64,000 nucleotides of DNA from positions 315,021 to 379,020 of the forward strand of contig JACOUP010000008.1 in NCBI GenBank assembly GCA_016177765.1. The letters are read 5' to 3'. The notes beneath the pieces are model-generated. The model saw nothing but the letters and a program-made list of their open reading frames with translations. It had not been told where the DNA came from and did no database searches. The DNA is from Deltaproteobacteria bacterium. GTDB taxonomy: Bacteria > UBA10199 > JACPAL01 > JACOUP01. Position numbers and translations under genes: made by a program. Below, in pieces: positions 8,209 to 63,177 of the stretch; position 1 is the stretch's first letter; each line of letters starts with the position of its first letter.

Positions 8209-9504
8209 ATGGGCCTGACGATCGTCCAAAAGAGTGATCTTTCCCGCCCGAAACCGAATCCCAAAATTGCCCTTGTCCTTGCCGGTGGTGCCATTACCGG
8301 CGGGACCTTCAAGGTCGGCGGTCTCAAGGCCTTAAACGATTTCCTGGTCAACCGCAAAGTCACCGACTTTGACATCTATGTCGGGGCCTCGGCCGGTGGT
8401 TTTCTCGCCGCCGCGCTGGCCGGCGGAATCACGCCGGAAGAGATGCTGAAAAGCCTGGACGGTTCCTCCAAACTCTTCAGCCAGCTCTCCCCATGGCATA
8501 TCTATCAACCCAACTGGCTGGAATTTGCCGAACGCCCCTTGCGTTTCTTCACCCAAAGTCTTGCCTACCTCCCCCGTTTGGCCTCTCCCTTGTTCCAACG
8601 CCCTCCCAAGGGTGCTTCACCCAACCTGAAGGAGATATTGCAAAAACGTCTTTTGGAGATCCCCTCCTTATGGGAGATGATCCCTTCGGGATTTTTCGAC
8701 AACGGCCCTTTGGAAAAATACCTCCGGAAGAACATGAAGAGAAACCGGATACCCAATGATTTCACGGCAATGAAAAAGAAACGGGGCAAGTCCCTCTATG
8801 TGGTCACTACGAACCTGGATACCGCAGAGAGGGTGATCTTTGGACCGGACGAAAAAAATGACGTAACCATTTCAAAGGCGGTCCAGGCATCCACTGCCGT
8901 TCCCCTCCTTTACAAGCCGGTTCGGATTCAGGGAGTTGATTATACCGATGGCGCCGTCCGGCGAACGACCAACATGGATGTTGCGATCCAGAAGAAAGCG
9001 GAATTGATCATCTGCTACAACCCGTTCCGTCCCTACTCCAACAAGCTGATGTTACAGTACCTTAAAGAGGAGGGGCGCTATGTCGCCAAGAACCGGTATC
9101 TTTCCTCCCACGGCCTCTTGATGATTCTCAATCAGGTCTTCCGGACGATTCTGCATACACGCATCCGGTATTTCATCGATCAGATCCGCGTTGACCCCAA
9201 CTTTAAGGGGGATCTCATCCTGATCGAGCCCCACGACGACGATTCCCTCTTTTTTGGGATGAACCCGATGTCGTTCTGGGACCGGGCGAAGGCGGCCAGC
9301 CACGGTTTCACCTCCGTTCGCAATACCATCCTCTCCCGCTTTGGCGAGGTTTCCAAAATTCTTGCCGCCTACGGCATCACCATGAGCCGTGATCTGGTGG
9401 ACAAAGATTACAGTCAGATCCGCAAGACACGAAATGATGCCAAGATCATGAAAGTTCTGGAAAAAGACCCCGCCCGCCGCCTTCGGATCGTCAAGGCGGC
9501 CTGA
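8209..9504 (+). CDS. Patatin-like phospholipase
   Basis: The 431-residue protein carries the patatin catalytic layout: a glycine-rich oxyanion loop near residue 27 (LAGGAITGGTFKVGG), the Ser nucleophile elbow GASAGG near residue 64, and the Asp of the dyad in YTDGAVRR near residue 248. It should cleave acyl chains from phospholipids or related esters. No signal peptide is visible, so it is probably cytoplasmic or peripheral. GAGG precedes the ATG by eight bases. One copy of the dispersed GGTGNNNCACCC palindrome (8611-8625) encodes the local sequence KGASPN, a hint that this loop holds inserted DNA. Confidence 0.9.
   Translation: MGLTIVQKSDLSRPKPNPKIALVLAGGAITGGTFKVGGLKALNDFLVNRKVTDFDIYVGASAGGFLAAALAGGITPEEMLKSLDGSSKLFSQLSPWHIYQPNWLEFAERPLRFFTQSLAYLPRLASPLFQRPPKGASPNLKEILQKRLLEIPSLWEMIPSGFFDNGPLEKYLRKNMKRNRIPNDFTAMKKKRGKSLYVVTTNLDTAERVIFGPDEKNDVTISKAVQASTAVPLLYKPVRIQGVDYTDGAVRRTTNMDVAIQKKAELIICYNPFRPYSNKLMLQYLKEEGRYVAKNRYLSSHGLLMILNQVFRTILHTRIRYFIDQIRVDPNFKGDLILIEPHDDDSLFFGMNPMSFWDRAKAASHGFTSVRNTILSRFGEVSKILAAYGITMSRDLVDKDYSQIRKTRNDAKIMKVLEKDPARRLRIVKAA
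8611..8625. repeat. Dispersed GGTG-NNN-CACCC palindromic unit (single copy)
   Basis: GGTGCTTCACCCAAC is flanked by CCCAAG and matches the units arrayed at 24658-24702 almost base for base. It encodes part of PKGASPN in the patatin-like protein. Confidence 0.55.
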
Positions 9505-13171: not shown

Positions 13172-14458
13172 CTACGGTTTCTTGAAAGTCAGCCTAAACT
13201 CGATATCCCGAAAGGCACCGGAATCGTCTTTGATTGTCCGGATTTGGTGGGACCAACCAAGCATATCTAAAGGAACGCCCAAATTAAGATCGACATTCGG
13301 CCAGGGGGGCCAAAAATTGGGGTTCGTCCCATAGGTCCTTTTCATCGCCGGAATCAGTCCGGAAAAAAGATAGCCGCTCCCATCCGGTAGCGGGGTACAA
13401 ACGGTAAAGTTCCCCATCAAAAAACGGAAAATATTCGCCGCCAGTTCATGGTACCCGGGGGTTGCCTCGTAAAAAATACCGGTTTTCAACCATCGGTGTC
13501 GCACCTGTGTCTCCAAATCGGCCGCGCCCCGAAGCAATGCCCGGGCATCGTCCCAAGAATACGGTTCACCCCTCTCCACACCTCGTTCCCTAAGGACACG
13601 AACCGCTTCCGCTGTCTGAGCCACTTTGGCAAATGGTTTCATTGAATAAAAAATACTGCGGTAGAGGGTCGCCACCTCCGACGTGCCAGGGATTTTATCC
13701 AGTGCCAGCAGATAATCCGTTTCCGTCCTGAAATCGGTCCATCTTTGTTGCCACTCCTCGGGATTTTGAGAGGCCATCAAGGCGTGAAAGAGTTCTATCG
13801 CCTTGGCCCGGTAGGCCTCAAAACAGTTTCGGGCCACAGCGATTTGCTCCGCAGGGGTCATCCGGGCAATCATCTCCGGGGTTACCTTTCGCAGATCAAA
13901 CGGTTTCCCATCTCTTTCTTTTTTGGCTCGCAGTTTGTCCAGCTCGTCAAAAACAGGATCGGACGAAGGGGCCGCAGGAGGCGCATCCGCACTGGCACGG
14001 GCCACTTGATTTCCACTCGCGGGTGGAAGAGGCACCCCTTTCTTTTCTACAAAAAGCGGTTCCGGAACAAGCTTCGGCATTGCGGGAGACAGCACCAATG
14101 TTGTGGGGGGGTATTCCTCAATCATCGGAGAGGCAAAGACGGTGGTCAGCCACCGCTCGCGTTCAGCCTCTTCGTAAATCGCTGCATATTGATGGGCATC
14201 ACGGGCAAATTCCACAAAAGGGGCGGCCAGACTGAGAGGCCCGGCCCAACGGGTGAGCCACCCAAGCCAGCGGAAACCGGCACCGCGGGCGACACCCCCC
14301 GCCTCCAAACGGGCCAATCTTTCCACCGATTCCTCTACCACCGGTCTGCTCCATGCCGGAACATTGGGTCTTAAAACCCGGGCCGGTCCTGTAGGAACAG
14401 GTGCCGGACTGTTTGGCACAGGGGCACTGCCAGTTGGCACTCTCATCGGGTAACCCAT
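13172..14458 (-). CDS. Hypothetical protein with Pro-rich N-terminus and long helical core
   Basis: A 428-residue protein of unknown function. The first ~35 residues are Pro/Val/Ala-rich and low in complexity. A hydrophobic segment near residues 65-85 (WLGWLTRWAGPLSLAAPFV) could be a membrane anchor. Residues ~165-300 are charged and helical (MIARMTPAEQIAVARNCFEAYRAKAIELFHALMAS). The C-terminal part contains Trp/Pro-rich sequence (NPNFWPPWPNVDLNLGVPLDMLGW). The ATG at 14458 is placed after AGGGGG, the same arrangement as the neighbouring unknown gene; an upstream in-frame codon at 14518 would read through the duplicated leader. Confidence 0.6.
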   Translation of the reverse strand: MGYPMRVPTGSAPVPNSPAPVPTGPARVLRPNVPAWSRPVVEESVERLARLEAGGVARGAGFRWLGWLTRWAGPLSLAAPFVEFARDAHQYAAIYEEAERERWLTTVFASPMIEEYPPTTLVLSPAMPKLVPEPLFVEKKGVPLPPASGNQVARASADAPPAAPSSDPVFDELDKLRAKKERDGKPFDLRKVTPEMIARMTPAEQIAVARNCFEAYRAKAIELFHALMASQNPEEWQQRWTDFRTETDYLLALDKIPGTSEVATLYRSIFYSMKPFAKVAQTAEAVRVLRERGVERGEPYSWDDARALLRGAADLETQVRHRWLKTGIFYEATPGYHELAANIFRFLMGNFTVCTPLPDGSGYLFSGLIPAMKRTYGTNPNFWPPWPNVDLNLGVPLDMLGWSHQIRTIKDDSGAFRDIEFRLTFKKP

Positions 14459-21606: not shown

Positions 21607-21622
21607 CTTGGGTGAATCACCC
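21607..21622. repeat. Dispersed palindromic unit, intergenic copy
   Basis: CTTGGGTGAATCACCC lies in the gap after the binding-protein gene and matches the consensus of the coding copies elsewhere in the window. A wider GCTTG/CAAGC pairing surrounds it, so it could form a small hairpin. Confidence 0.6.
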
Positions 21623-23823: not shown

Positions 23824-25080
23824 TTGCGGCTCGCGGTAACCCTACTCCTTGCTTTGTCCATGACTGCCTGTGGAGGCGGGTATGTCCATCAATCGCGAGG
23901 CGCCCGCCACTCCTTCCAGAGGGGGGATCCTGAGAAGGCCCTGAAGTGGTACCAGCAACAGAAACCACCCCACCGGGATCGTCTTCTCTACCTGATGGAT
24001 CAGGCTGTCATCCTCCACACCGCCGGTCGCTACCAGGAAAGTTTAAAAACCTTCGAGGAGGCGATCCGACTCTCGGAGGCGATGAACAGCCCGCAGGTAC
24101 TGGCGAAAACCGCCTCGCTTGTCACCAATGACAACCTGATCCCCTATAAAGGAGAGGATTTTGAACGATTGCTGATGCACCTCTTCCAAGTCCTCAACTA
24201 CCTCGGGTTAGGTGAGCCGGATGAGGCGTTGGTGGAAGTCCGTCGGGTCCACACAAAATTTTCAGACTTCTTTAAGGATAATTCCAAGAGTTATTTAAGG
24301 AACGCCTTTGCCACCTACCTTTCAGGATTGGTTTGGGAGGCCAATGGCAAACTCAATGATGCCTACATCGATTACAAAACCACCCAAAAGATAGTCCCCT
24401 CATTCCCTTCCCTCCCCCAGGATCTCCTGAAGGGGGCCACGCTGTTTGGATTCCTGAATGAAAAGGCCCGATGGCAAAAATTGTTCAGACAGGATTACCG
24501 GCCCCTCCCTCCGGATCAGGGAGAGGTCATCCTTCTGATAGAAGAAGGGGTCGTGCCTGAAAAGGAATCGACCGAAGAAGAGATAAATCTTCAGGTTCTT
24601 CCATTGCCGAGATACCCGAAGGATTTGAAAAACCCCGTGCTGGTTTCTGTCTTCAGGGGTGCTTCACCCAAGGGTGCTTCACCCAAGGGTGTGTCACCCA
24701 CAGATAAAACAGAACTGGCCCAAACAACCCCCCTCTACCGGGTCGATGAAGCGGCGAAGAAAACCTTAGCCGATCAAAAGGGGGGGATGATCGCGCGCGG
24801 TCTTGCCAGACTGGCCGTCAAAGAAGGGGCCGCCGTCGCCGTTGGGACAAAGGTGGATCGGGACCTTGGAATTTTTTTGGGTGTTCTTGTTCTGGCGACC
24901 AACCGTGCCGATCTTCGTTCCTGGCTCACACTTCCCCGCTCTTTTCAGGTGGCGCGTTTCGCCCTTCCCGAAGGGACCTACGACCTCAAACTCTCCTGGC
25001 CCGGCGGCTCCAAATCCATTCCCACAATGGCCGTGAAGGCCCGCAAAAAAACCTTTGTGATCCAGAGGATCTTTGATTAG
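23824..25080 (+). CDS. TPR-containing lipoprotein (COG3014-like)
   Basis: The 418-residue protein starts at TTG directly after the LpoB-like stop. It has a lipobox (LALSMTAC, Cys ~17), TPR-like helices in residues 30-200 (DPEKALKWYQQQ, ESLKTFEEAIRLSEAM), and a conserved C-terminal part with RGLARLAVKEGAAVAVG and DLRSWLTLPRSFQVARF, typical of COG3014 proteins found beside LpoB. A GASPKGASPKGVSP stretch (~residues 279-293) comes from three copies of a palindromic 15-bp unit and looks inserted. It is probably an envelope scaffold. Confidence 0.8.
   Translation: MRLAVTLLLALSMTACGGGYVHQSRGARHSFQRGDPEKALKWYQQQKPPHRDRLLYLMDQAVILHTAGRYQESLKTFEEAIRLSEAMNSPQVLAKTASLVTNDNLIPYKGEDFERLLMHLFQVLNYLGLGEPDEALVEVRRVHTKFSDFFKDNSKSYLRNAFATYLSGLVWEANGKLNDAYIDYKTTQKIVPSFPSLPQDLLKGATLFGFLNEKARWQKLFRQDYRPLPPDQGEVILLIEEGVVPEKESTEEEINLQVLPLPRYPKDLKNPVLVSVFRGASPKGASPKGVSPTDKTELAQTTPLYRVDEAAKKTLADQKGGMIARGLARLAVKEGAAVAVGTKVDRDLGIFLGVLVLATNRADLRSWLTLPRSFQVARFALPEGTYDLKLSWPGGSKSIPTMAVKARKKTFVIQRIFD
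24658..24702. repeat. Three tandem 15-bp palindromic units in a lipoprotein gene
   Basis: Two identical GGTGCTTCACCCAAG units are followed by GGTGTGTCACCCACA. Each carries GGTG-NNN-CACC and encodes Gly-X-Ser-Pro-Lys/Thr in frame. Confidence 0.85.
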
Positions 25081-26950: not shown

Positions 26951-27927
26951 TGGAACCATTATTAACCGTTGAAAATCTCAAAACCTATTTTCTGACCTCC
27001 CGCGGGACCGTCAAGGCGGTCGATGACGTCAGTTTTACAATCAACCGCGGGCAAACTTTAGGCCTCGTCGGAGAATCCGGTTCCGGAAAATCGGTCACCG
27101 CCCTTTCCCTCCTCCGCCTGGTCTCTCCGCCGGGACAGATCATTGGCGGAAAGATCCTGATGAACAACTCCACCGATCTCCTCAAACTCCCCGAGGAAGA
27201 GATGAGAAAGATCCGAGGCCAGAAGATCGCGATGGTCTTTCAGGAACCGATGACGAGCCTGAACCCGGTTTTTACCATCGCCAACCAGATCGAAGAGGCG
27301 ATCGCCATTCATCAAAAATGCCCCTCTCCGGAGGGAAGGGAAAAGATGCTGGAATCGCTCCGGTTGGTCGGGATTCCGGATCCGATCCGTGTGGCCAAAA
27401 GCTACCCCCATGAACTATCCGGGGGGATGCGGCAGAGGGGGATGATCGCCATGGCGCTCGCCTGTCAGCCGGAACTGTTGGTCGCCGATGAACCGACAAC
27501 GGCCCTCGACGTGACCATCCAGGCCCAGGTGCTGGAACTTTTGAAAGAATTGCAGAAAAAACTGGGGATGGCCTTGATCCTGATCACCCACGACCTGGGG
27601 GTGGTGGCGGAAACGGTGGAAACGGTGATGGTGATGTATGCCGGCAAGATCGTCGAGAGCGCACCAACGAGGGAGATCTTCGCGAACCCAAGGCATCCCT
27701 ATACAAAGGCCCTCCTTGGGGCTATCCCGCGATGGAACGAGGGCCCATCACGGCTACAGGTGATCCCCGGAACTGTCCCCGATCTTTCCAAACTACCACC
27801 CGGTTGTTCTTTTCAGGACCGTTGCGAAAAGGTCGAAAATCGTTGCCGTCAGGAAGAACCGGAGTTAGAAGAGAAACCAACCGGCAAGAAAGGAAATAAG
27901 GTACGGTGTCACTTCCCTTGGGTGTAA
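26950..27927 (+). CDS. dppD: Peptide ABC transporter ATPase, DppD/OppD type
   Basis: The 325-residue ATPase has Walker A GESGSGKS (~40), the signature [15 protein letters not shown], Walker [13 protein letters not shown] and the H-loop ITHDLGVV. The C-terminal oligopeptide-type extension contains [17 protein letters not shown], a conserved Cys cluster of this subfamily. It overlaps dppF by 22 bases. Confidence 0.94.
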
Positions 27928-28919
27928 CACCCCTGCTAGAAGTAAAAGGGTTGGTCAAACGGTTCCCGGTCCGGGGCGGCCTGTTCTCGCGAGTTCAGAG
28001 GTCGGTCAAGGCCTTAAACGGCGTCTCCTTGTCAATCCAGCCGGGTGAAACCCTGGGGCTTGTCGGTGAATCCGGTTGCGGGAAGACAACACTCGCGAGG
28101 GCCCTCCTGAAATTAATCCCTTCTGATTCAGGACAAATCCTTTTCAAAGGGACCGATCTGACCCCGCTTTCTTTCAAGGCGATGCGTCCCTTCCGGCGCC
28201 ATATCCAGATGATCTTTCAGGACCCCTACTCCTCGTTGAACCCCCGCATGACCGTCGGTGAGATTATTGCCGAACCTCTGGTGATCCACAAAATGGTCCG
28301 CCGCCAGGAAAAAAGAGAGAGACTGGAAAAACTCCTGGCCACGGTCGGGTTGGCCGCCGACAATCTTGACCGTTACCCTCATGAGTTCTCCGGGGGGCAG
28401 AGGCAAAGGATCGGGATCGCCAGGGCACTGGCCCTTCTTCCGGAATTGGTGATTGCCGACGAACCGGTATCGGCCCTCGATGTCTCGGTGGGGGCCCAGA
28501 TTGTCAACCTCCTGCGGGATCTTCAAAAACAGCTCCATCTCTCCTACCTCTTTGTCTCCCACGATCTCAAACTGGTGAGAATGCTCTCCCATCGTGTGGC
28601 TGTCATGTACCTGGGGGAAATTGTGGAACTGGTTCCGGCCGAAGGGTTAGCCAGGCCGCTCCATCCTTATACCCAGGCACTGGTTGCGGCGATTCCTATC
28701 CCTGATCCGGAGAAGAGGCGAAAACGAACCCTCCTGACCGGAGAGGTCCCCTCTCCCACGGAGATTCCCGAAGGTTGTCCCTTTCATACCCGTTGTCCTT
28801 ATAGGGAGGCTCAATGCCGCACCGAAAAGCCCCCCTTCAAGGAGTGGCTCCCAGGCCATTGGGCCAGTTGTCATTTTGCCGATAAGATTGTCGATAAACT
28901 TGGAGGCTCCCATGCTTAA
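27906..28919 (+). CDS. dppF: Peptide ABC transporter ATPase, DppF/OppF type
   Basis: The 337-residue ATPase has Walker [24 protein letters not shown], Walker [13 protein letters not shown] and SHDLKLVR, followed by the same Cys-rich oligopeptide extension ([14 protein letters not shown]). It starts at GTG within dppD. One copy of the dispersed palindromic unit (27917-27932) covers the dppD stop and the first codons of this gene. Its product pairs with DppD to drive import. Confidence 0.94.
27917..27932. repeat. Dispersed palindromic unit at the dppD/dppF junction
   Basis: CTTGGGTGTAACACCC spans the last codons and stop of dppD and codons 5-9 of dppF, so it contributes coding sequence in two frames. 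Confidence 0.5.
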
Positions 28920-55937: not shown

Positions 55938-57200
55938 TTAATGCGGGAGGACTACTGACGAGAGGTTCCAGATCGGGAGGAAGATGGAGAGGGCCAGAAA
56001 GGCGACCGCCCCAAAGATAAAGACCAGCATCATCGGCTCCAAAAGAGTTGTTAAGTTCTTGATTGTATAGGCTATTTCTATATCATCGTGGGCTGACAAC
56101 CCCTCCAGCATCTCATCCAAGGCCCCTGCCTTTTCACCGACGGCGGTGGTCTCAATAAAAATTGTTGAAAAATAAGGGGATTTTTTCATCGCCTCGGAGA
56201 GGGTCTTTCCGATGGCGATCTCACTCTTCAGGTTGAGGATCTCTCTCGAGATGAGGTGGTTATCCAGGGTCCCCCCGACTACTTCCAGGGCCCTTGTGAC
56301 TGAGAGACCGCTCCGGTAGAGGGCCGCAAAGATATGACCAAAGCGGGAGCTGGCAATCTTCAGGTGCAGGGGGCCGAAAATCGGCAGTTTGAGCCGGAGA
56401 CGGTCGAGGGTGAGTCGTCCCTTGGCCGTCCTTTTATAACGATAAAAGAGGAAAAGGCCGACACCGGTGATGAGAAGTGCCAGGGCCCAGTATTCGGTGA
56501 CAAAGTTGCTGGCCCCGATCAACAAACGGGTCACCAGTGGGAGTTCTGCCTTGTAGGTCGCATAGAATTGGGCAAACCTGGGGACAACGGCTATCATCAA
56601 GACCACAATAGCCAGCACCAACGCCCCAAAAACGATCTTCGGGTAAAGGAGCGCCGATTTGACCCCCGACCGGATTTCATTTTCTTTCATCAGCAAGGTC
56701 GTGAGATCCAGCAGGACTTTATCCAGAAGTCCCGCCTCCTCACCGGCCATGATCATGTTGACATAAACCTCATTGAAGACCCTTGGGTGTCTGGACAATG
56801 CCTTGGAGAGAGATGACCCGGCCTGGACATCGGTCTGGATCTGGGAAAGGGCGGCTTTCAGCTTTTTGTTTTTTGTCTGGCCGATCAGAATCCCAAAAAT
56901 CTCCTCCATCCCCATCCCGACCTTGACCAGCATCTGGAGTTGCCGGGTAAAGACAATCAACTCTTCAAGGCTGACACGATAAATCAGGTTCCAGATCAGA
57001 TCCCACAATTTGGCTTTTTCAAAGCGGAAGGGTAAATCACCCAAGGGTAACCTCAGACTCCTCTTCCTGACCTGGATCGGGATCAGCCCCTGGGAGGCCA
57101 GTTTTGATTCCAGTTCCTCCCGGCTCTCGGCCTTGGCCTGCCCAACGATCAGGAGGCCGCGAGGGTCTCTCGCCCGATAGGTAAAATCAGAGACGGTCAC
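55938..57200 (-). CDS. pilC: Type IV pilus inner-membrane platform protein
   Basis: The 420-residue protein has two tandem T2SF domains with three membrane helices and the repeated GxGxxLSxAL motifs (AGSSLSKALSRHPRVFNEVYVNMI and GKTLSEAMKKSPYFSTIFIE). It anchors the pilus and connects to PilB. GTG start overlapping the pilB stop (GTGA). Confidence 0.95.
   Translation of the reverse strand: MTVSDFTYRARDPRGLLIVGQAKAESREELESKLASQGLIPIQVRKRSLRLPLGDLPFRFEKAKLWDLIWNLIYRVSLEELIVFTRQLQMLVKVGMGMEEIFGILIGQTKNKKLKAALSQIQTDVQAGSSLSKALSRHPRVFNEVYVNMIMAGEEAGLLDKVLLDLTTLLMKENEIRSGVKSALLYPKIVFGALVLAIVVLMIAVVPRFAQFYATYKAELPLVTRLLIGASNFVTEYWALALLITGVGLFLFYRYKRTAKGRLTLDRLRLKLPIFGPLHLKIASSRFGHIFAALYRSGLSVTRALEVVGGTLDNHLISREILNLKSEIAIGKTLSEAMKKSPYFSTIFIETTAVGEKAGALDEMLEGLSAHDDIEIAYTIKNLTTLLEPMMLVFIFGAVAFLALSIFLPIWNLSSVVLPH
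57030..57045. repeat. Dispersed palindromic unit in pilC
   Basis: GGGTAAATCACCCAAG is a variant copy of the unit arrayed in pilB and the COG3014-like gene; it encodes LGDLP on the minus strand. Confidence 0.45.
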
Positions 57201-58993
57201 ACCACCTCCTCGGTGACCCTCAAAACCTCCTCAAGGGTTGTCATCCCCGCATTGACCTTTTCAAAGCCATCCTCGCGGATATCCTTCACCCCCATCTTGC
57301 GGAGTTGGTCCCTGACTTCCGTATCGGAGGCCTTGCGATAAATGAGGTCTCTGATAACATCATTGATCGGTGCCAGTTCGAAGAGGCCAACCCTCCCCTT
57401 GTAACCGGTCATCCGGCAATGGGAACACCCCTGCCCCCGAAACGCTGTTTTCACAAGCTTGACCCAGGGGCCTAAACGGGTTTTGTCTATTGAAACCTCT
57501 TCACGACAATGGGTGCAGATTCTCCGGACCAGCCGTTGATTCAGGATACCGACAAGGGCCGAAGAGAGGAGGAAGGATTCGACCCCCAGATCCAGAAGCC
57601 GCGACAAGGCCCCCGACGCCGTATTGGTATGGAGTGTCGAGAGGACCATATGCCCTGTCATCGCGGCTCTCACCGCAATGTCCGCTGTTTCGGCGTCACG
57701 AATCTCTCCGATCATCACCACGTTCGGATCCTGACGCAAAATAGCCCTGAGGGCGGTGGCAAAGGTGATCCCCGCCTTCGGGTTGACCTGGGCTTGATTG
57801 ACCCCCGGAATCTCGCTTTCCACAGGGTCCTCAATGGAAACGATATTTTTTTCCGGGGAATTGATTCGCAAGAGACCCCCATAGAGGGTCGTCGACTTGC
57901 CGGATCCTGTTGGCCCTGTGACCAGAAAAAGCCCATAACTCTTGGCGACCAGTTCCGAAAAAAGTTTCCGGTCCTTCTCGCTAAAACCGAGGTCCTCAAT
58001 GGTGATCAGATTCTCCTTGGAGAGGAGCCGGATCGCCACCTTTTCCCCTTTGGTTGTCGGGTAGGTGGAGACCCTTAAGTCCAGTCTGTTCCCCAGGAGA
58101 CTGATGCGGATCCGGCCATCCTGGGGGATCCTCCTTTCGGCGATATCAAGGCCGGCCATGATCTTGATTCGTGAAATAATCGGGAGATGCATCGGACGGG
58201 GCAGGACTTGTTTCTCTTCCAGAAAACCGTCAATCCGGTAACGGACCCGGAGCGAATCCTGTACCGGTTCGATATGAATATCGCTCGCCCGTTCGGAATA
58301 GGCACGACTGATCATCTGGTTGACAGAGGCCACAATTTTTGGCCCGGAGGCGATCTCCTGTAATTTTTCAGAGAGACCGGTCATCCCCTCATCATCTCCA
58401 ATCCCGATGACCTCCAGATCCGACAATCCCTTGGGTGGCACACCATTGTGTGACACACCCTTGGGCGAATCGCCCTTGGGTGACACACCATTGTGTGACA
58501 CACCCTTGGGCGAATCGCCTTTTTCAGAGGCCTCCCGCCGCCAGTCGCTGGAGTAGTAGTGGTCTATCGCCTCCAGGATTTCCCCCCTGGAAGAGAGAAC
58601 AGGGTCAACCTCCGCATGGAGAACCGCCTTCAGGTCATCCAAGGCGGCCAGTTCCAAAGGATTGGCCATCGCCACAACAATTTTCTCCCCATCCTGACGG
58701 AGGGGGAAAACGGTATAACGTTTGGCCAAGGCGAGCGGGACCCTCTTGACCGTCTCCGGATAAATTGTTGTCTCCGCGAGAGAGACAAAGGGGATATGGA
58801 GTGCCTGGCTGAGAAATTGGAGGATCTGTTCTTCGGTAACGAATTTTTTTTGGATAAGGATCTGGGCCAAATCGACCCCCAGGTCTTCCTGACTGACCTT
58901 GGCAACGGCCAACTGCTCCGGCGTGACGAGCCCGGCAACCACCAGGTCCCCCCCCATCCCATCCAACATCTTGTAGCTCGGTTCGGTCTGCAT
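57197..58993 (-). CDS. pilB: Type IV pilus extension ATPase
   Basis: PilB drives pilus extension. The 598-residue protein has the N-terminal MshEN domain (residues 1-155), the GspE core with Walker A GPTGSGKST (~363), RQDPNVVMIGEIRDAETADIA, HTNTASGAL, and a zinc Cys quartet (CTHC and CSHC). A (DSPKG, VSHNG, VSPKG) repeat, residues ~158-188, fills the linker between the two parts and is encoded by a 90-bp array of palindromic units. Confidence 0.95.
   Translation of the reverse strand: MQTEPSYKMLDGMGGDLVVAGLVTPEQLAVAKVSQEDLGVDLAQILIQKKFVTEEQILQFLSQALHIPFVSLAETTIYPETVKRVPLALAKRYTVFPLRQDGEKIVVAMANPLELAALDDLKAVLHAEVDPVLSSRGEILEAIDHYYSSDWRREASEKGDSPKGVSHNGVSPKGDSPKGVSHNGVPPKGLSDLEVIGIGDDEGMTGLSEKLQEIASGPKIVASVNQMISRAYSERASDIHIEPVQDSLRVRYRIDGFLEEKQVLPRPMHLPIISRIKIMAGLDIAERRIPQDGRIRISLLGNRLDLRVSTYPTTKGEKVAIRLLSKENLITIEDLGFSEKDRKLFSELVAKSYGLFLVTGPTGSGKSTTLYGGLLRINSPEKNIVSIEDPVESEIPGVNQAQVNPKAGITFATALRAILRQDPNVVMIGEIRDAETADIAVRAAMTGHMVLSTLHTNTASGALSRLLDLGVESFLLSSALVGILNQRLVRRICTHCREEVSIDKTRLGPWVKLVKTAFRGQGCSHCRMTGYKGRVGLFELAPINDVIRDLIYRKASDTEVRDQLRKMGVKDIREDGFEKVNAGMTTLEEVLRVTEEVV
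58431..58520. repeat. Six 15-bp palindromic units in pilB (two 45-bp repeats)
   Basis: The plus strand reads TTGGGTGGCACACCA, TTGTGTGACACACCC, TTGGGCGAATCGCCC and then the same three again with single-base changes. Each unit is itself roughly palindromic. Because 15 is a multiple of three the frame is kept. Confidence 0.9.
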
Positions 58994-60196: not shown

Positions 60197-63177
60197 AATG
60201 AGGTCCCCAGTTCCAGAATCAAAACGCCATTCTTGATATTACTGCCCAGAATCGGATCGGTCAGGCCGGCGACGCGGGCCTGATTGACAACAATAATCCC
60301 ATACCCCAACCGGCCGGTCACCGGGATATGATACCCGATGACAAAGTCTCCCCGGAGTTCGGCACCGACCCCCAGGAGGAAGTCCTTGAAGAAATCGACA
60401 AAACCGCCTGTTTTTTGATCCTTGTTCCAGGCATCTCCATAATCGGCAAAGAGTCCCAGGTGGGCACTATTGAGAAAAAGCGGCAAGGTCCCCAGCCCCC
60501 TCTGGAGACGAAAGAGCGGGACCCTGTATTCTGCCGAGATAACCATCGCCCGGTCACGGGAAAAGGTCACGAGGGGAAGGCCGCGGAGGGAAAAGACACG
60601 ACTGGAGGTGCCGGTCAGAAACCCCTCACCGATCGCCCCACCAAGGCCAAAGTTGCCCTGAAAAAGTTGGTCCCCCAGGGCGATGCCACCGGCCGACCGA
60701 AGGGCTATCACATGGTGTTGCCACGGGAGGGGGAGAAAAAGCCGCTCCTCCCCCCAAAAGAGCTGTTGTTCCAGGCCAGCCTTGGAACCCAGGACCTCAT
60801 CGGTCAACATAAAATTCATGTTGAGGCGATGTCCCCCCTCCGGGCTGATGGAGGCCGGATAAAATTTTTGTCCCCGCGTATCCCAATTGTACTGGAAGTG
60901 GAGGCCGGCATACCTTCCCTCCGTCGGGACCGCCGTCCCTGTCGGGATTGTGGAGAGGTTGTCCCGACCCTCAAAAAAGTAGGAGACCGAGGTCCGGTGC
61001 GATCCCGCACCATCCAGAGGGATCCGGATCCCACTGTGTCCGCGCCAGCGTTGTTCAAAATAGTCGGACCCGATCCTGAAAATATCCCCGTAATTGACCG
61101 CATACCGCGAGGCCCCGGTAAAAAACGAGGGGGTCCAGCGGTTGTAGAAATAATCGGCGTTAAACCCGATAAATCGGGCATCGGTCCGGTAGGTCGGCCC
61201 CCCGAACCAGAAATGCCGCTCCAAGGGATCATGAGAACCGATCATCGCCGACACAAAGAGTGAACCGTCCAGATAGAGGGCGTTCGGCATGATGTAGTGC
61301 GGCAGGAGGGAGGGGCCCCAGGGGGAATAGGGTTTGGGTGGAGAAAGTAGGGACGGGTTGTCTGGCACCGATAATCGGTTTCGCTCAAATGCCGCGAAAC
61401 CGTTATCTGCACTCTCGGCCCGATTGTCCTTAGAAGGCTTTCGTGAATCGGGCCTGCGAGAGCTGCCGATCAACCCGTCCCTACTTTCTCCTAGAGCGAT
61501 TTTCCGTATCTCATACCCCCGTCCATGGTAATACTGGAAATAAAGACTCTTCGCGTCTGCGGAAACTGTCGGTGAGAAGGCACCTGTCAAAACGTTTGTG
61601 ATTTTTTCCGTTTTCTTCGTCTTGAACGTGTGCCGGTAGATATTGGCAATCCCGCTCCGGTCAGAAGAAAAATAGAGCGAAGAACCGTCAGGGTCCCAAA
61701 CCGGACCGGTCTCCATCGCGGGATCATCCGTCACCGGCGAAAAAATTTTCTTATCTGTATCAAAAATGGCAATGTCCCTTTTTCCCCTCTTGGGTGAACC
61801 ACCCTTCCAGATAGAGAGAGCCACCCGCTTGCCGTCAGGAGAAAAACGGGGGGTGTCCAGTTGTTCTGCCATCTGTCCTTCATAGATAATAGCTGTCTCT
61901 TTTGAGGCCAGGTCATAAAAAGCGAGAGAAGAACGCCCTGTTTCCTGAACAACAAAAACGAGTCTCTTGCCGTCCGGTGAAAAATCGGGATCCCTTCCCC
62001 TTTTTCCTTGAGTGAGCTGTTCCGATTTCCCGGTCTCGAGGTCAATCGTATGGAGATCTTCAAAATAGGAATACCGCTTCACCAGCCCCTGACTCGAAAA
62101 GACAACCCTCCGGCCTGACGGCTCAAAACGAAATCCGGAGGCGCTCTTTTTTAACACCACCCTCTTTTTTTCCCCCGTTGCCAAAACGAGACTCTGGATG
62201 GAGGGGGCCCGATGGACCGACTCCTCCAGGTAAATAAGGCTCTGACCATCCGGAGAGGGGGAGGGATGGAGATAACTGTCTTTCCCGGTGACAACCGGTT
62301 CCCCTTCTCGCAGACCCTCGGCCTCCAGGATTTTTTTCTGGTCGGCATACTTCTTCTCCAATTCTGCCTTCCATTCTCGCCAAAGGGTGCGGAACGTCTT
62401 GCCGTACGCACGCCAGGCCTTGTTGCTGAGACCAAAAAAGAGGGGGGAGGCGCCGTACTTGTGGGAGAATTTGATTAATTTATCTTTCCCCTGTTTGTCG
62501 GAAAGGAACTGCCAGAATTTCACCCCATAGAGGTATCCCGCCAGGTACCCGGGCCAGTCATACTGGGTCCCGGCCATCTGGTCGAGGTTCAGGAACTTCC
62601 CGTGGAGGGTGTCGGTCCGGAGAAGCATCTCGGAAAAACTGGCCCGCCCCCGCCCCGCCCCGGTCATCTCGGTCTCAAAAAAAGAGGCGATCCCTTCGGC
62701 AACCCAGGTGGGAGTCAGACCGTTGGGCGCAATCATCTTGCCGAAGAGAAACTTCAACCCCTTCATCGGGGCCCCAACATCGTTCAGGTGCAGGATATGG
62801 GTGTACTCGTGAAAGACGAGCTCCTTCAGCCAGTCGTCATAATACCCCAGCGCCGTCTCCGGCGAAGGGGGAACCACCCGAAGGAGGATGCTGTTATAAG
62901 GGAGGACCGTGGCAAAGCCGTTGGCCTGGTCATGATTGTCCACGATGACAACCTGCGTTTTCCCCCAGGGATAGACCCCAAAGATCGCTCCCAACTGTTG
63001 ATACGCCTCTTCCAATAAAGAGGCCGCCCTTTGGGAGAGAGCCTCCTCCCCTTCATGAAAATGGATGGCAAAGTGGTCCGTCTTCAGGGTGGACCAACGG
63101 AGAGAAGGATCAAACGTCGCTCCATAAAGGAGTGTGGGAAGAATTATAAAAAAGAGACAAAGGAGGTTCTTCCGCAT
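60193..63177 (-). CDS. Metalloprotease-like, PD40-propeller and beta-barrel fusion protein
   Basis: The 994-residue protein has a signal peptide (LLCLFFIILPTLLYG). Residues ~25-240 form a gluzincin-type peptidase domain with HEYTH (~125) and WVAEGIASFFE (third ligand Glu). Residues ~270-560 hold WD40-like (PD40) beta-propeller blades (SPDGQSLIYL, FSPDGKRLVFV, WDPDGSSLYFSS). Residues ~620-994 resemble an Omp85/BamA-type barrel (YHIPVTGRLGYGII) ending in Phe. A ~50-residue insert (~562-612) from a palindromic element links propeller and barrel. It would be an outer-membrane surface protease. Confidence 0.8.
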   Translation of the reverse strand: MRKNLLCLFFIILPTLLYGATFDPSLRWSTLKTDHFAIHFHEGEEALSQRAASLLEEAYQQLGAIFGVYPWGKTQVVIVDNHDQANGFATVLPYNSILLRVVPPSPETALGYYDDWLKELVFHEYTHILHLNDVGAPMKGLKFLFGKMIAPNGLTPTWVAEGIASFFETEMTGAGRGRASFSEMLLRTDTLHGKFLNLDQMAGTQYDWPGYLAGYLYGVKFWQFLSDKQGKDKLIKFSHKYGASPLFFGLSNKAWRAYGKTFRTLWREWKAELEKKYADQKKILEAEGLREGEPVVTGKDSYLHPSPSPDGQSLIYLEESVHRAPSIQSLVLATGEKKRVVLKKSASGFRFEPSGRRVVFSSQGLVKRYSYFEDLHTIDLETGKSEQLTQGKRGRDPDFSPDGKRLVFVVQETGRSSLAFYDLASKETAIIYEGQMAEQLDTPRFSPDGKRVALSIWKGGSPKRGKRDIAIFDTDKKIFSPVTDDPAMETGPVWDPDGSSLYFSSDRSGIANIYRHTFKTKKTEKITNVLTGAFSPTVSADAKSLYFQYYHGRGYEIRKIALGESRDGLIGSSRRPDSRKPSKDNRAESADNGFAAFERNRLSVPDNPSLLSPPKPYSPWGPSLLPHYIMPNALYLDGSLFVSAMIGSHDPLERHFWFGGPTYRTDARFIGFNADYFYNRWTPSFFTGASRYAVNYGDIFRIGSDYFEQRWRGHSGIRIPLDGAGSHRTSVSYFFEGRDNLSTIPTGTAVPTEGRYAGLHFQYNWDTRGQKFYPASISPEGGHRLNMNFMLTDEVLGSKAGLEQQLFWGEERLFLPLPWQHHVIALRSAGGIALGDQLFQGNFGLGGAIGEGFLTGTSSRVFSLRGLPLVTFSRDRAMVISAEYRVPLFRLQRGLGTLPLFLNSAHLGLFADYGDAWNKDQKTGGFVDFFKDFLLGVGAELRGDFVIGYHIPVTGRLGYGIIVVNQARVAGLTDPILGSNIKNGVLILELGTSF
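61340..61491. repeat. 152-bp palindromic element with nested hairpins
   Basis: A 21-bp perfect inverted repeat bounds the element (61340-61360 and 61471-61491; core GTAGGGACGGGTTG). Inside are two more stems: 61370-61384 with 61394-61407 (GCGAAACCG), and 61412-61425 with 61446-61462 (CTCTCG and GCCCGATT pairings, 3-base bulge). The three stems make a cloverleaf-like fold. Confidence 0.9.
61790..61804. repeat. Dispersed palindromic unit in the protease/barrel gene
   Basis: TTGGGTGAACCACCC matches the unit consensus and encodes GGSPKR on the minus strand. Confidence 0.55.

Follow-up and report, generated by a model that had tools for sequence, protein, structure and literature searches.

The window considered here is a stretch of 64,000 nucleotides from the genome G000 (1.92 Mb in 19 contigs), and it contains the gene pilB, whose product has an MshEN domain (residues 66-149) and a T2SSE ATPase domain (residues 220-592) by Pfam. 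An array of six 15-bp units lies in frame in pilB and encodes about residues 159-189 of PilB, 30 residues with the sequence GDSPKGVSHNGVSPKGDSPKGVSHNGVPPK. Tandem Repeats Finder describes the array at a period of 15 (5.5 copies) and at a period of 45 (2.0 copies, 97% matches, score 177). The initial annotation of this DNA had reported six units in two 45-bp repeats, placed in frame between the MshEN domain and the ATPase core, and both the repeat analysis and the domain positions bear this out. It had also described the units as palindromic, which holds for the hairpin unit but not for TTGTGTGACACACCC; the latter lacks this kind of palindromy and pairs with the adjoining unit to give a 28-bp bulged hairpin (GGGTGNCACACCATTGTGTGANNCACCC). 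Each 45-bp block consists of one unit and one 30-bp dimer, duplicated in tandem, and the part of the array read as SHNG is, by folding, half of the 28-nt bulged hairpin GGGTGACACACCATTGTGTGACTCACCC and its variants. Coordinates are given in Table 1.

Table 1. The pilB array, its components, and the other copies of the 15-bp unit in the window.
Feature	Position	Strand	Basis	Remark
pilB, type IV pilus extension ATPase	57197..58993	-	ORF and Pfam	598 aa; host of the array
Array of six 15-bp units, head-to-tail	58431..58520	+	Sequence, repeat finding	Two 45-bp copies of unit plus 30-bp dimer
30-bp dimer, copy 1, TTGGGTGGCACACCATTGTGTGACACACCC	58431..58460	+	Sequence, fold	28-nt bulged hairpin
Single unit, copy 1, TTGGGCGAATCGCCC	58461..58475	+	Sequence	
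30-bp dimer, copy 2, TTGGGTGACACACCATTGTGTGACACACCC	58476..58505	+	Sequence	
Single unit, copy 2	58506..58520	+	Sequence	One mismatch, at the last base
CCCTT target-like site, left edge of array	58428..58432	+	Sequence; genome-wide left-flank consensus (C)CCTT	TT-form strand; CCC belongs to the flank, TT is common to the first unit
Single unit, patatin-like phospholipase gene	8610..8624	-		KGASP; flanks AA..AA
Single unit inside an unassigned ORF	14251..14265	-		
Single unit, intergenic gap	21608..21622	+		Flanks TT..TT
Three-unit array, TPR protein gene	24657..24701	-	Includes Tandem Repeats Finder	GASPKGASPKGVSP
Single unit, start of oligopeptide ABC transporter ATPase ORF	27918..27932	+		
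Degenerate unit, pilC/T2SSF	57030..57044	-		One mismatch; 12-residue gap there in the G001 orthologue
Single unit, PD40 beta-propeller protein gene	61790..61804	+		Flanks TT..TT

The AlphaFold model of PilB (overall mean pLDDT 80.7) is unfolded at residues 155-191, where pLDDT is <50, in agreement with the flexible linker first proposed. This linker is 67 residues long, versus 30-39 residues in 22 orthologues that include the one from G001, a genome of a sister genus, and the 30 array residues are missing from PilB in 22 of the 22 relatives compared. Unit number, which the initial annotation had recommended comparing among relatives, is therefore not conserved; the outcome it had named as contradicting its proposal, conserved unit number and sequence across distant relatives, was looked for and not found in the 22 orthologues. 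For PilB the array is probably near-neutral, doing no more than lengthening a disordered linker.

The same annotation had treated the amplification as particular to pilB. The unit instead belongs to a genome-wide family that is also found outside genes. In the window it occurs at seven places beyond pilB, including one three-unit array and one copy with one mismatch, and the pattern CCCTTGGGYGANNCRCCC has 22 window matches at ≤3 mismatches against 3.3 expected, a number reached by none of 100 shuffled sequences. Exact copies of TTGGGYGNNNCRCCC number 267 in G000 (132 forward and 135 reverse; none for the reversed control pattern) and 43 in G001, a deltaproteobacterial MAG of the same family but a different genus; the counts in 28 further genomes from the order and class are 0-7, similar to controls. 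The longer pattern TTGGGTGANNCACCCTT occurs 147 times in G000 and 26 times in G001, and only one other match was found in 46 genomes of the phylum. About 728 kb of G000, in stretches of which one has 16 kb masked as N, and 188 kb of G001 were sampled in addition. The 728-kb sample contains 228 units (≤1 mismatch) in 161 arrays, of which 115 are single, 30 double, and 13 triple, two have four units, and one, the pilB array, has six and is the longest. The pilB repeat almost certainly belongs to a dispersed insertion family, and this family of a 15-base palindrome, present in hundreds of copies, is among the smallest insertion-like repeats seen in bacteria.

The distribution of the family is narrow. 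A search of public genomes for arrays of two units returned only one G001 record (JAUSKE010000062) and one isolated alphaproteobacterial array, whose genome does not carry the family (8 exact matches versus 2 for the control); arrays were not found in viral contigs, and 20-80 kb samples from eight relatives outside the family gave no comparable palindromes of other sequence at a like density. A full-text literature search found no paper with the repeat sequence. The array in the alphaproteobacterial MAG (L031:3667-3711) consists of three units of GGGTGTAGCACCCTT. TOPO cloning junctions (AAGGGCGAATTC) resemble the unit, which raises the question of an assembly or vector artefact; this likeness is superficial and confined to the CCCTT/AAGGG ends, and the repeat is present in two genomes of different genera that were assembled independently, at shared and unshared orthologue sites and with many variants, so that an artefact deserves practically no credence.

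At the core of the unit, two 5-bp arms (GGGTG/CACCC) enclose a 3-nt center, most commonly ATT, and form a 13-bp hairpin, to which a TT common to the flank is added. Hairpins of the form GGGTG-3-CACCC number 177 in the 728 kb and are by far the most frequent short inverted repeat; a wider core pattern is found 198 times, versus 4-6 in Markov-1 sequences. Replacement of a stem T-A by C-G has occurred on both sides in 15 cores versus about 6 with a one-sided change. Among isolated cores from both genomes (n=102), 55 are flanked by TT..TT or AA..AA and none by TT..AA or AA..TT. When cores are oriented by the right TT alone, a left TT is present in 55 of 67 (33 of 45 in G000 and 22 of 22 in G001). 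This left TT is preceded by C in about two thirds of cases (about 63%) at each of the next two positions and in about 40-49% at the third, a preference that weakens outward; the right flank of the oriented isolated cores has no preference, with which a second selection of cores agrees. The target is one-sided, (C)CCTT, with the unit inserted 3' of it, an arrangement that can be written CCTT-GGGTGAATCACCC-TT. Two readings of the TT are possible, either target plus element end or a duplication of 2 bp, and there is no longer target-site duplication. A new copy ends in CCCTT and recreates the site, which accounts for the exact 15-bp head-to-tail spacing.

Comparison of orthologues between the two genera shows clean gains. 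The argG gene (argininosuccinate synthase) encodes WVNHP in G001 only, with a DNA gap of exactly 15 bp; a xer-type (tyrosine-recombinase) gene has gained exactly 15 bp in G000 only; and EF-Ts has KGDSP in G001 only, together with a small further length difference alongside. Other G000/G001 orthologue pairs also show gains of one or more units. In gcvT the unit is at the same site in both genera, followed in G000 by a degenerate second unit; since this site is common to both, some insertions predate the split, and the family was active before and after it. Two long genes with the same unit in near-identical contexts (L034:13344, NGEETKGDSPKELELT, and L034:18250, NSEETKGDSPKELELT) look as if a gene duplication had carried the insertion along.

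These gains bear on the proposal that the repeat is a signal sequence (a DNA uptake sequence, a protein-binding site, or a chromosome-organizing motif) that became common through point mutations and their biased retention. The short, near-identical copies, which number hundreds, occur on both strands, and often lie in genes, would fit such a role, as would the presence of type IV pilus genes. Uptake sequences, however, arise mostly by point mutation, whereas here 15-bp indels are found at orthologous sites, along with tandem arrays and dispersed dimers; the clean indels largely refute this proposal, which is very improbable.

A second proposal is that repeats of the type Gly-X-Ser-Pro-Lys, variable in number between strains, are selected because they tune the PilB linker. 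Its attraction is that the largest array of the sample sits in pilB, in frame, in the part between MshEN and the ATPase that is disordered in the model. The 22 relatives nevertheless manage without it, and the same DNA unit turns up outside genes as well as in genes unrelated to pilB, and is read in other frames too (LGESP, RVIHP). Genes contain 85 of the 99 arrays (about 86%) in the first 464 kb, though array density is 2.7-fold higher outside them (0.521 versus 0.194 per kb), as expected if many insertions into genes are lost; gene calling used a simple hexamer model, which makes the in-gene and frame counts approximate. Expected frame use was obtained by inserting the consensus at in-gene CCTT sites and dropping any frame that contains a stop. 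The frame read as KGDSP is observed 46 times (45.3 expected), LGESP 16 times (21.8 expected), and RVIHP 14 times (8.6 expected). The two frames that contain TGA account for just 8 arrays, as expected if only those with stop-free centers survive. The frame bias fits CCTT targeting and stop avoidance, so these counts need no selection for GDSPK, and selection of a linker peptide is a most unlikely origin of the array. The frame WVNHP, with 1 observed and 9.3 expected in the sampled G000 stretches, seems to be avoided, which suggests selection against this peptide inside proteins. Arrays in genes are most frequent in the first and last tenths of proteins (17 of 85 and 13 of 85).

The 30-bp dimer is itself dispersed, as the unit is. 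Its central 20 bp occur as 13 exact copies at 12 sites, several of which have no adjoining unit.

The nearest known kinds of repeat are the GTAG and CGTC REPs and the RPEs of Rickettsia. GTAG REPs, with their RAYT/TnpA-REP proteins, are likewise short hairpins in high copy with a one-sided unpaired tetranucleotide, some intragenic and some bulged (PMC3733652, PMC8266576), and small examples exist: Thauera REPs have 5-bp stems and the Marinomonas REPMb is a 10-nt palindrome interrupted by 4 nt (PMC3733652, PMC8266576). The hairpin studied here is in high copy (267 exact) but at 13 bp is below the usual 20-40 bp; its tag is CCTT instead of GTAG; 85 of 99 arrays are in genes, whereas REPs are mostly extragenic; no RAYT is flanked by it; and it makes a 15-bp net insert arranged head-to-tail, whereas REPs are mainly head-to-head. 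CGTC REPs and Rickettsia RPEs are palindromes found in frame in coding genes, and no dedicated transposase is known for them (PMC3733652; PMC6649704, which cites the RPE work). In-frame insertion into genes is seen here too (argG, EF-Ts, the xer-type gene, and pilB). CGTC REPs have an 8-9 bp stem, a CGTC tag, and a CCA-like tail (PMC3733652), whereas the unit has a 5-bp stem, a CCTT tag, and a TT tail, and differs further in its five residues per unit and its exact 15-bp tandem arrays. The family is REP/RPE-like but is not classed as either one, because tag, size, location, and transposase association all fail to match. Bacterial MITEs, such as the enterobacterial RU and those of Coxiella, resemble it in being non-autonomous, dispersed, and sometimes coding. 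Their usual length is about 100 bp or more, and they have terminal inverted repeats and duplicated targets, in contrast to the 15 bp of the unit.

On balance, and with a probability slightly above even for the reading as a whole, the pilB array is best read as a cluster belonging to a micro-palindrome that is mobile, non-autonomous, and specific to its lineage, and that may spread by HUH-like copying. The 13-bp hairpin lies 3' of CCTT with its right end again TT, so that each insertion adds exactly 15 bp and the recreated site lets a further unit follow head-to-tail. A length of 15 bp is a multiple of three, and an insertion into a gene therefore survives if the frame is read without a stop; copies accumulate where they are tolerated, as at the ends of proteins and in the linker of PilB. 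The dimer, a 28-nt bulged hairpin, disperses like the unit; in pilB, a unit and a dimer may have come together as the 45-bp block before its tandem duplication, an order of events suggested by the present arrangement.

The copying itself may be a single-strand cut-and-join of the hairpin at CCTT of the kind performed by HUH (Y1) transposases on REP and IS200/IS605 ends, a step whose chance of being correct is slightly short of even. IS200/IS605 elements have a one-sided target, no longer target duplication, and hairpin ends. The unit resembles them in its one-sided target, its lack of a longer target duplication, and its hairpin, and its bulged dimer is a further likeness to HUH substrates; E. 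coli TnpA-REP requires both the tetranucleotide and the bulge (PMC8266576, which also covers the choice of cleavage site). No transposase-bearing element with the ends of the unit was found. The tag CCTT, which is neither GTAG nor CGTC, speaks against an HUH enzyme. A lagging-strand preference is usual for HUH elements, and the orientation of the units, which has no bias with respect to GC skew or replication strand, counts against one as well.

Microhomology template switching would dispense with a dedicated enzyme: a nascent CCCTT end slips onto the AAGGG of any existing copy, which serves as donor, copies one or more 15-bp units as far as the following CCCTT, and then returns to its own template. 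Blocks 15, 30, or 45 bp long would spread in this way. Template switching accounts about as well for most of the same signs, namely the target, the 15-bp quantum, and the spreading of multi-unit blocks: the target (C)CCTT is the unit's own right end with a preference that falls outward, the left flank alone is constrained, and blocks of several units, the 30-bp dimer among them, are dispersed whole. Template switching alone leaves unexplained the restriction to one bacterial family and the complementarity of the stems. It is a possible route, though a doubtful one, and the HUH-like route is placed slightly ahead of it because of the paired stem changes and the lineage-specific spread. Tentatively, the 15-bp palindrome could be a self-spreading element, the smallest known, that copies head-to-tail blocks between CCCTT ends and carries five-residue modules into essential proteins across one bacterial family, by means of either an unrecognized single-strand integrase or hairpin-driven template switching that needs no dedicated enzyme.

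The family suggests that 15 bp is enough for a dispersed insertion-like repeat, and that a repeat of this size can therefore enter many genes and leave them intact, depositing short modules with proline and glycine in core enzymes (EF-Ts, argininosuccinate synthase, and PilB among them). Its size, one-sided CCTT target, and dimer subfamily make the mechanism directly testable, and it bears on the spread of REP-like palindromes that have no linked transposase (CGTC REPs and the Rickettsia palindromes).

Three Y1 proteins are encoded in G000 (C8:833546-833890, C8:481451-481789, and C3:20255-20983), which counts in favor of the HUH-like route: one is an IS200 TnpA that exceeds the NCBIfam cut-off for IS200, one a RAYT just above the RAYT cut-off (80.1 versus 80), and one a RAYT-like protein below the latter cut-off; in G001, which is 82% complete, Y1 genes were not found. 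The RAYT above the cut-off is flanked by a different palindrome of GGTAC type, GGTACNNNGTACC, and a link to the family by association was rejected because this RAYT carries palindromes of its own. Given this RAYT and the failure to find Y1 genes in G001, no enzyme is tied to the family. Poxvirus topoisomerase IB cuts at CCCTT, but a topoisomerase of this type is excluded as the cutter since eight genomes contain no member. The palindromes of the RAYT locus (L041:155-1765, corresponding to G000 C3:20155-21765) have the sequence AAAAGGTACCGGGTACCTTTT and in part form head-to-head pairs with a spacing of 25 bp, the two members being separated by TTTTGGCCAAAA; they are in low copy, with 6 sites within one mismatch in G000, 9 in G014, and one each in G001 and G003. 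A unit of the sequence TAGGGCGAATCGCCC lies at L119:1001-1015, about 400 bp from the IS200-type TnpA gene, a proximity that could be due to chance at such a density of units.
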